Positions 58,973 to 60,213 of a stretch of 64,000 nt of DNA are shown piece after piece. Below the pieces are notes generated by a model. It was not told where the DNA came from, did not search any database, and saw only the letters and a program-made list of their open reading frames with translations. The DNA is from Caulobacter sp. Root343 (GTDB taxonomy: Bacteria > Pseudomonadota > Alphaproteobacteria > Caulobacterales > Caulobacteraceae): contig NZ_LMDF01000009.1 of NCBI RefSeq assembly GCF_001425745.1, forward strand, positions 62,001 through 126,000. Reading direction: 5' to 3'. Made by a program: the position numbers and the translations under genes. Each line of letters starts with the position of its first letter. The stretch's first letter is position 1.

Positions 58973-59020
58973 CCCTTCCGGGGGCTCTGGAGGGCCGCCT
59001 AGGGCCCGCGTTGCTCTTAG

Positions 59021-59290
59021 CTAGTGGACAGACACCGGCGCCAGTTCGTGGGCGAGGGCGGCGGCGATCGCCGTGTCACGGTCGATCATGACGGCCAGGC
59101 GGGCCCCGTCGGCGCGGCACACGGCGTACAGTGTCTGATCCGGCGACAGGCTGAAGTCCTCCACGCCTTCCGGAACGTCGGCGAGGATCTCGGCCGCCTT
59201 GATCGGGCGGACATAGACGAGGTCTGGCGCGCCGAGGGCCGCGAACGCTTCGCTCGTGAAGAGCGGGTTGTGGTGGGTGTTGGGCGTCAT
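59021..59290 (-). CDS. DUF1150 family protein
   Basis: 89 residues from ATG 59290, with AAGGAGG 8 bases upstream. The sequence (FAALGAPDLVYVRPIKAAEIL, then LSPDQTLYAVCRADGARLAVMIDR) matches DUF1150, a small conserved alphaproteobacterial protein usually next to a small heat shock protein gene, as here. Function unknown. Transcribed with hsp20 (84-bp gap). Confidence 0.88.
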   Translation of the reverse strand: MTPNTHHNPLFTSEAFAALGAPDLVYVRPIKAAEILADVPEGVEDFSLSPDQTLYAVCRADGARLAVMIDRDTAIAAALAHELAPVSVH

Positions 59291-59374
59291 GATGACCACC
59301 TCCTTGGTGAGGGAACGCGCCGTTTCCCGGCCGGTTCAGCGCCGGGCGGGAAGGGACGAGTTCCGCGCGGCCGT

Positions 59375-59800
59375 TCAGCCCGCGCTACGAATGGGAATCT
59401 TTTTAATCAGGCGCTCAGGTTCGGGGCGCGCCAGGTCGATGTGCAGGAGGCCGTGCTCCAGGGTCGCGGCGGTCACCTCCATGCCCTCGGCGAGGACGAA
59501 GGTGCGCACGAAACCCCTGGCGGCGATGCCTCGGTGCAGGAAGGCGCGCTCGGCCTCCGAACGGCCGTCGGCGTCGCGCTTGCCCGCCACGATCAGCTGG
59601 CCGCCCTCGATGGTCACCTGCAACTGGTCGGGCGAGAAGCCGGCTACGGCCAAGGTGATGCGCACGCCGCCGGTGTCGGACTGCTCGACATTGTAAGGCG
59701 GATAGCTTTCCGAGGCGGCCTTGGCGGCGCGCTCGATCAGGTCTCGGGTGTGTTCGAAGCCCAGCAGGAAGGGGCTGTCGAACAGGATCGTCCGGGTCAT
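59375..59800 (-). CDS. Small heat shock protein (Hsp20 family)
   Basis: 141 residues from ATG 59800. The alpha-crystallin domain spans about residues 35-125: YPPYNVEQSDTGGVRITLAVAGF at its start, QLQVTIEGGQLIVAG, FVLAEGMEVTAATLEHGLLHIDL. The short N terminus MTRTILFDSPFLLGFEHTRD fits IbpA-like proteins. It holds unfolded proteins in soluble complexes under heat stress. Its leader contains a ROSE-like thermometer and a sigma-32-like promoter, and DUF1150 follows. Confidence 0.93.
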   Translation of the reverse strand: MTRTILFDSPFLLGFEHTRDLIERAAKAASESYPPYNVEQSDTGGVRITLAVAGFSPDQLQVTIEGGQLIVAGKRDADGRSEAERAFLHRGIAARGFVRTFVLAEGMEVTAATLEHGLLHIDLARPEPERLIKKIPIRSAG

Positions 59801-59872
59801 CGCGAAGTCCTCGCTCAAGCGACTTCGTTCGTGGAGACAAACCCGAGGATCGGCGAAGGTCCCCACGACACG
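59801..59872 (-). promoter_or_regulatory. ROSE-like RNA thermometer in hsp20 leader
   Basis: On the mRNA strand a first hairpin pairs GTGGGGAC with GTCTCCAC (59866-59859 and 59838-59831). The second pairs CGAAGTC with GACTTCG (59827-59821 and 59809-59803) and holds the Shine-Dalgarno GAGG, 8 nt from the AUG. The strand facing it includes UCGCU, matching the U(U/C)GCU of known ROSE elements. Melting with heat would free the ribosome site. ROSE elements are known before alphaproteobacterial small heat shock genes; this one is inferred by reading only. Confidence 0.6.
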
Positions 59873-59879
59873 GATCCAG

Positions 59880-59908
59880 AAATGGCGACCGCGGCCAATC
59901 GGTTCAAG
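59880..59908 (-). promoter_or_regulatory. Sigma-32-like promoter for hsp20
   Basis: On the minus strand CTTGAA (59908-59903) is followed after 15 nt by CGCCATTT (59887-59880), close to the heat-shock consensus CTTGAA-N13-17-CCCCATNT. The predicted transcript would begin around 59872, giving a leader of about 70 nt that matches the ROSE-like structure. Confidence 0.5.
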
Positions 59909-59939
59909 AGGAGGGGGAAGCTAAGGTCCAGAAATGGAC

Positions 59940-59967
59940 AAGGCCCGGACGTTTCCGTCCGGGCCTT
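59940..59967 (-). terminator. Hairpin after tRNA-Ala(GGC)
   Basis: AAGGCCCGGAC and GTCCGGGCCTT form a perfect 11-bp stem around GTTTCC, 3 bp beyond the 3' end of the minus-strand tRNA, so it should end the tRNA transcript. Confidence 0.7.
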
Positions 59968-59969
59968 GA

Positions 59970-60045
59970 TGGTGGAGCTAAGCGGAGTCGAACCGCTGAC
60001 CTCTTGAATGCCATTCAAGCGCTCTACCAGCTGAGCTATAGCCCC
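59970..60045 (-). tRNA. tRNA-Ala (anticodon GGC)
   Basis: 76 nt on the minus strand with encoded CCA. The acceptor GGGGCTA/TAGCTCC has G3:U70; the anticodon arm CTTGA-ATGGCAT-TCAAG gives GGC; the T arm has GGTTCGACTCC. It reads GCC and GCU codons. Confidence 0.97.
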
Positions 60046-60213
60046 AAATTTTTCGAAGGGAACCTTACGGTAACTCTCGGAAATCCTTGGTCTCTTCGGC
60101 GTTTCGACTGGTGTCGCTCCCCGAAGAGGCGCGGAACCTAGTCCGGGATTTTTTTGGGATCAAGCCTCTTCTCGAAGTTTTTTCGAGAAAAATGTCGCAC
60201 CCCGAAAAACCCC

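Follow-up and report, generated by a model that had tools for sequence, protein, structure and literature searches.

ROSE-like elements are known in alpha- and gamma-proteobacteria, Caulobacter crescentus included, and are defined by a U(U/C)GCU sequence that pairs with the Shine-Dalgarno (SD) sequence in the 3'-proximal hairpin (PMC3669281). The element preceding ibpA of E. coli K-12 is an established thermometer of the ROSE type (PMC3669281), and ROSE-like examples have also been described for S. meliloti ibpA (PMC2873474) and in M. loti (PMC3989490). Deletion of the bulged G that lies opposite the SD abolishes ROSE translation (PMC4288164). Global melting of the MiniROSE RNA occurs only at 60-70 °C, with little change below 60 °C without ribosomes, and the element still functions when ribosomes assist (PMC4288164). 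Conversion of G-U to G-C beside the bulged G, through a U-to-C substitution, cost the P. putida element its thermal response (PMC3669281).

The sHSP2-larA operon of C. crescentus has been described as a direct target of sigma-32, and LarA, a DUF1150 protein, activates Lon (PMC10665427). Cells that lack lon contain detectable LarA already at 30 °C, and stresses other than heat, such as exposure to amino-acid analogues or ethanol, raise its level (PMC10665427). In that study, from 2023, a section on LarA explains its control by sigma-32 and proteolysis only, and the word 'thermometer' is absent from the main text (PMC10665427). Within an open-licence library, no paper was found that joins DUF1150 with a thermometer. 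The Caulobacter gene that has been tested for ROSE is reportedly CC2258, which is of the sHSP1 type, and ROSE candidates are said to have been reported by Waldminghaus in 2005.

We analysed a stretch of 64,000 nucleotides (the window) from the 5.36 Mb genome of Caulobacter sp. Root343, in which an hsp20 gene is followed by a gene of the larA type (Table 1). On the basis of its conservation, its covariation and its likeness to described elements, we judge it highly probable that the leader at 59801-59873 is a two-hairpin ROSE-like RNA thermometer located behind a sigma-32 promoter. The start codon of hsp20 was set from the conserved N-terminus, and the ATG lies at 59800; the first-pass annotation had placed it one base off, at 59801. 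In the mechanism we envisage, a sigma-32 promoter would transcribe the leader together with hsp20 and larA, hairpin I would act as a stable scaffold, and the imperfect UCGCU/AGGA pairing of hairpin II, with its single bulged G, would cause poor 30S loading at normal temperature. Warming would loosen the SD/anti-SD pairs, so that hsp20 is translated from mRNA that sigma-32 is concurrently making, and the co-transcribed larA would use its own SD. The melting, the ribosome access and the use of sigma-32 in this scheme are drawn by analogy from known ROSE elements.

Table 1. Features of the hsp20-larA locus, with positions in the window.
Feature	Positions	Strand	Basis or remark
hsp20 (sHSP2 type, 141 aa)	59375..59800	minus	Pfam HSP20 PF00011, 3.9e-15
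larA-type DUF1150 gene (Lon activator), which follows hsp20 as the operon's second gene	59021..59290	minus	PF06620, 1.9e-26
larA SD AAGGAGG, partly open (predicted 0.39-0.45 at 28 °C)	59299..59305	minus	Sequence and folding
SD GAGGA of hsp20, inside hairpin II	59812-59808	minus	AGG predicted about 93-95% paired at 28 °C
UCGCU anti-SD (ROSE motif), bulged G at 59820	59822-59818	minus	
Hairpin II, presumed thermosensor, CGAAGUC-G-CU / AG-GACUUCG	59827-59803	minus	Folding, 9-pair count (71 leaders), structural alignment
Hairpin I, covarying stem, unpaired G in GGC-G-CCG..CGG-GCC (consensus of relatives)	59868-59829	minus	
-10 CGCCATTT, sigma-32-like	59887-59880	minus	15 nt after the -35
-35 CTTGAA, sigma-32-like	59908-59903	minus	CTTG and 15-nt spacer in 71/72 leaders
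GC-rich hairpin between tRNA-Ala(GGC) and the hsp20 promoter	59940-59967		
tRNA-Ala(GGC), upstream of the hsp20 promoter	59970..60045	minus	

When the leader is folded with Vienna, hairpin II forms by pairing of CGAAGUC with GACUUCG, with one G bulged and CUU paired with the GAG of the SD. UCGCU thereby stands opposite the AGGA of the SD across the bulged G, which is the hallmark of ROSE elements, and the hairpin is predicted to have an energy of -11.1 kcal/mol at 37 °C with flanks. This is the arrangement proposed by the first-pass annotation, namely two hairpins of which the start-adjacent one closes GAGG with UCGCU opposite, and the hairpin over GAGG that it demanded of any folding is present. 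The leader therefore carries the U(U/C)GCU-SD pairing and the unpaired G opposite the SD, and it forms the 5' UTR of a small heat shock gene (PF00011) in which two hairpins, I and II, fall within the two to four expected. A UCGCU-type motif with at least six outward pairs occurs twice in the 64-kb window, both strands taken together, and one of these occurrences is at the hsp20 start. Nevertheless, single-sequence energy evidence is weak: the folding energy has a z of -1.52, with 17 of 200 shuffles equally stable, and when the upstream part is shuffled, 77 of 300 sequences conceal AGG at 28 °C at least as well. These energy statistics were given no weight in favour of the element.

Comparison among related genomes, in contrast, gives strong evidence that lies far beyond chance. 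A search of the genus with the hsp20 protein gave matches in 75 of 75 genomes, of which 72, at 180 bits or more, were taken as larA-type orthologues, and one leader was collected from each of these 72 genomes. Genome G081 has three copies, one of which was taken; of these three hsp20 loci, two face each other as inverted copies within one contig of 5.5 kb (L064, C5), possibly an assembly artefact. The arrangement T[CT]GC[TC], a loop of 4-11 nt, and AGG, with at least four outward pairs, was observed in 71 of the 72 leaders (the exception is L121), with UYGCC rather than UYGCU in a few. Even the strict UYGCU..AGG form is present in 69 of 72, where shuffles give 2.1. In the MAFFT alignment A1 (71 distinct rows), the column of the bulged G does not vary. 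That the loop is free to vary in length while the pairing is kept supports the ROSE-like reading, and the conservation in related genomes that the first-pass annotation called for was found.

Support from covariation is unevenly distributed between the two hairpins. By a 9-pair count over the 71 distinct leaders, 93.9% of hairpin II cells are paired, compared with 28-57% when the structure is slid and 89.9% in shuffles, and one pair is A-U in 45 leaders and G-C in 26. Across these 71 leaders, hairpin II has 2 pairs that change on both sides and 6 further pair types, neither of which is above shuffles, and only the cell counts and the score exceed them; the score is equalled when the structure is slid by -1, though 57% of cells are paired there versus 93.9%. 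Hairpin II is invariant among the 18 closest leaders, which are uninformative for or against it because there is no variation there.

A covariance model (R1) built from 18 close leaders recovered, at E values up to 0.0031, 59 of the 72 leaders, its own 18 included; its matches amount to 60 rows, one being the second copy in L064. At E 1 it matched 68 of the 72 larA-type leaders and none of 19 sHSP1 leaders, along with 15 further matches outside right-strand leaders, nine of which are antisense echoes of leaders. RNAalifold applied to A1 found just 8 pairs, 2 of them changed on both sides. Because the length of hairpin I varies in A1, a structural alignment (A5; 60 matches, 58 distinct) was built, and in it 94.5% of cells are paired, against 30-51% for slid structures. 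Changes on both sides affect 15 of 26 pairs and 147 cells, compared with 40.0 cells in shuffled and 12-22 in slid controls, although fitting the alignment to the structure helps this compensatory count. Fourteen of the 15 compensating pairs belong to hairpin I, and seven of the 10 hairpin II pairs are invariant. Compensatory change, a criterion of our own, is thus evident in the leader, as are flips beside the SD in other families, and the ROSE-like hairpin that had been proposed before hsp20 gains from both conservation (71/72) and covariation (15/26 pairs).

Some members of the genus depart from the typical arrangement. In 16 distant leaders the paired AGGA is located 16-21 nt before the ATG, which is far for an SD. 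In eight of these 16 (L107, L109, L118, L120, L123, L124, L131 and L132), where AGGA precedes the ATG by 18-21 nt, another SD-like string lies off the stem, so that the SD actually used may escape the hairpin there. Among 30 close leaders, three (L068, L072 and L075) have an SD predicted to be 0.36-0.56 open at 28 °C.

The promoter elements listed in Table 1 conform to a sigma-32-type pattern, and the CTTGAA/CGCCATTT promoter that had been proposed for hsp20 is corroborated by fixed spacing. Specifically, exactly 15 nt separate CTTG from an xCCA box in 71 of the 72 genus leaders, while the distance of the promoter to the ATG varies between 76 and 96; where several promoter pairs fitted, the one nearest to 15 nt was chosen. 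The rhizobial RpoH1 consensus is CTTGAA-N15-16-CCTATAT (PMC4843759), with which the -10 sequence agrees in part only. By analogy with known ROSE elements, transcription would start near 59874, giving a leader of about 75 nt. Scanning 59000-60100 revealed no sigma-70-like promoter and no T-rich terminator. The tRNA-Ala(GGC) gene is found upstream of hsp20 by ARAGORN in 19 of 29 genus loci and was not found in the other 10. A similarity search of plasmid DNA returned, among its best 20 matches, only pieces in or around hsp20 or the tRNA.

A significant match to an Rfam ROSE covariance model, which the first-pass annotation had named as supporting evidence, was not obtained. The ROSE model (RF00435) aligns to the leader over its full length (model 1-94) with 19.5 bits, against a gathering threshold of 45 bits, and with an E, calculated for 4227 families, of 0.88 or 0.35 according to which stretch was supplied. 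ROSE_3 (RF02523; gathering threshold 43 bits) gave no match to the leader up to E 10, and the sHSP1 leader of L001 scores a sub-threshold 22.2 bits with it. When 18 larA-type and 2 sHSP1 loci were compared with Rfam, sub-threshold ROSE matches at E up to 1 appeared in two alone, L149 and, counting a match anywhere in the locus, L247. The Rfam ROSE models miss the hsp20-larA branch at their cut-offs.

Related leaders were also sought beyond the genus. A second model (R2), used with strict filters, matched in 76 of 199 family genomes, and hsp20 is nearby in 19 of 20 such places that were examined (it is absent at L196). Searches for DUF1150 were positive in 97 of 150 genomes of the order, in 70 of 142 of the class and, among 14 control genomes, only in that of Caulobacter vibrioides. 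We read 29 DUF1150 loci of the order (L203-L231) and, of the 70 found in the class, 28 (L232-L259), and tblastn located hsp20 near DUF1150 in 22 of the 29 and 26 of the 28, respectively. For the other 9 of these 57 loci, tblastn found no hsp20 within about 1.5 kb. Seven of the nine (L212, L214, L221, L226, L227, L229 and L230) are all the loci read from another family, f5, of the same order, which speaks against an operon of hsp20 and larA that is found everywhere.

Of 41 leaders from the family and the order, 39 contain the anchored motif string, but 19 of the 41 were selected through an R2 match, seven come from genomes already counted in the genus and one duplicates another locus. The remaining 14 contain it in 12 cases; it is missing in L203, where the start was not located, and in L213. 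The class supplied 26 leaders, all from families outside that of the window; the motif string was found in 23, with at least three contiguous outward pairs in 22. At the edge of the SD, the base pair is UA in 16 leaders, UG in 3, CG in 3 and mismatched in 1, and the next pair is GC in 13, CG in 8, AU in 1 and mismatched in 1, the best-pairing register being used where a choice existed. A looser pattern within the last 45 nt is found in 22 of the 26 leaders versus 3.24 in shuffled sequences (maximum 9 in 200 rounds), and strict UYGCU..AGG in 18 versus 0.77. In L249, L253 and L255 the start is misplaced, and CUCGCU is visible by eye nearby.

We also considered how far translational control might extend into the operon. 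DUF1150 lies beside hsp20 in 29 of 30 genus loci, and in these 29 larA starts 59-119 nt past the hsp20 stop (84 nt in the window). The larA SD, mostly AAGGAGG, has a predicted opening that averages 0.29 at 28 °C and 0.32 at 42 °C over the 29 loci, and the hsp20 SD is predicted to be less than 0.1 open at 28 °C in 23 of 30 (range 0.003-0.56). At 26 of the 29 loci the larA SD is predicted to be the more open of the two; in L068, L072 and L075 it is the less open. In the window, the predicted change from 28 to 42 °C is from 0.039 to 0.113 (2.9-fold) for hsp20 and from 0.386 to 0.455 (1.2-fold) for larA, and the absolute rise in opening is alike. Given this separate and, by prediction, more accessible SD, larA probably lies largely outside control by the thermometer in the genus. 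Such an escape fits the presence of LarA at 30 °C in delta-lon cells and its induction by amino-acid analogues (PMC10665427); the same 30 °C detection and the non-heat induction indicate that the leader does not shut the operon off tightly. The first-pass annotation had two layers of heat control converging on the hsp20-DUF1150 unit, of which the hairpin and the promoter before hsp20 are supported; a translational layer over the whole unit is less well supported, as larA has its own SD that is predicted to be more accessible.

Other arrangements are seen in the gap between the two genes. On folding, the gap in the window (59291-59374) gives strong GC-rich hairpins, which could either attenuate transcription into larA or lend stability to that portion of the mRNA. 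In four loci from other alphaproteobacterial families (L244, L246, L256 and L259), larA overlaps the hsp20 stop by 4 nt, and there the thermometer could reach larA through translational coupling.

These observations lead us to a tentative picture, one that we consider possible rather than probable, in which the operon is split in Caulobacter-like bacteria: the chaperone would be gated by temperature, larA would follow sigma-32 alone, and the leader would be old and widespread across many alphaproteobacterial families. If this were so, heat would yield both proteins, non-heat protein stress would yield LarA with less chaperone, and the thermometer would set the balance between holding and degrading damaged proteins. 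A thermometer on hsp20 combined with a separate accessible site for larA offers a testable route to differing ratios of chaperone to protease activator.

A different reading of the leader, which we consider less likely but worth weighing, is that it serves mainly as a docking site for Hsp20 itself, which would repress its own synthesis until misfolded proteins draw it off, either alone or on top of a thermometer. In that case the leader would respond to unfolded protein rather more than to temperature. There is precedent in E. coli, where IbpA represses itself via the ibpA 5' UTR, which it binds through R93, and needs R93 and an aromatic residue at 34 to do so (PMC10474464); positive charges at positions 97 and 98 complete the pattern. 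The equivalent residues, R95 and Y33, are present in 78 of 78 hsp20 loci (30 from the genus and 48 others, some repeating genus genomes), and the equivalent of position 97 is R or K in all 78. Induction of LarA by amino-acid analogues or ethanol is also in keeping with docking, though sigma-32 explains that induction too (PMC10665427). However, K98, whose replacement in K98A leaves E. coli IbpA inactive (PMC10474464), corresponds to T in 30 of 30 genus loci, and position 98 is basic in just 1 of the 48 others (1 of 78 overall), so that the Caulobacter proteins do not show the full IbpA-type pattern. R95 and Y33 may be retained for other reasons, and the conserved pairing of the SD with a bulged G suits melting that is free of protein. 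Self-repression by a small heat shock protein is nevertheless compatible with a thermometer, and the two may share the leader.

It is also conceivable, although we regard it as improbable, that the hairpin is a static attenuator that holds hsp20 translation low at every temperature, leaving heat control to sigma-32 alone. The predicted strength of hairpin II (median -10.2 kcal/mol for the 72 leaders) agrees with this idea, and between 28 and 42 °C the predicted opening of AGG in the window leader increases only from 0.065 to 0.115 (from 0.047 to 0.134 with a shorter downstream flank), reaching just 0.15 at 50 °C (0.22 with the shorter flank). A strong hairpin II that opens little between 28 and 42 °C counts against a thermometer. 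Yet the AGG of the proven thermometer of E. coli K-12 ibpA is predicted to open from 0.097 to 0.157 over the same interval, and because an established element is predicted to be similarly shallow, the melting prediction for hsp20 neither proves nor refutes the local melting of the SD region between about 30 and 45 °C that is expected of a ROSE-like thermometer. MiniROSE likewise functions with ribosome aid despite its high global melting temperature, and retention of the unpaired G that ROSE elements need makes a static attenuator less likely (PMC4288164). Finally, chance folding of GC-rich sequence, or constraint on the DNA of a different kind (promoter, start region), would fit the unremarkable single-sequence statistics (z -1.52; 77/300) but is contradicted by the covariation counts (147 versus 40.0 cells), by compensatory change in 15 of 26 pairs with pairing kept while loop length is free, and by the same motif before hsp20 in other families of the class, and we give it almost no credence.

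Returning to the thermometer as the preferred interpretation, the leader of the window has in common with the classical small heat shock ROSE elements (B. japonicum hspA ROSE1, E. coli ibpA and S. meliloti ibpA) a U(U/C)GCU sequence set against the SD, an unpaired G, a small heat shock gene and a sigma-32-type promoter (PMC3669281, PMC2873474). Those elements have three to four hairpins, whereas the leader described here has two and falls below the Rfam ROSE cut-offs. With E. coli ibpA in particular it shares the same UCGCU, the same AGGA and a similarly shallow predicted opening, and at the position of the P. putida U-to-C change it has a C, which counts against a thermometer but is also the case in E. 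coli ibpA. The short ROSE-like element of Pseudomonas ibpA likewise has a stable hairpin I and U(U/C)GCU over the SD in hairpin II (PMC3669281). It differs in that its UTR is 61-62 nt long (PMC3669281) and gamma-proteobacterial, compared with about 75 nt in the window, and hairpin I of the window has an extra unpaired G and an apical stem.

A closer parallel exists within the same genome, where a second hsp20, of the sHSP1 type (L001:1914-2050, contig C1), has its own ROSE-like hairpin. Here UUGCU lies over AAGGA in the start-proximal hairpin, and CTTGAA is seen upstream by eye. This hairpin is weaker than hairpin II of the window, and its type is the one that R1 does not match. Predicted hairpins are weaker for the 19 sHSP1 leaders in general (median -5.9 versus -10.2 kcal/mol), which suggests that a single cell has two thermometers, each with its own set point. 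The alignments and models prepared in this study could help annotators to locate the element in relatives. RNA thermometers of the ROSE type are already known, and the hsp20-larA leader is very likely a further, well-conserved example of them.
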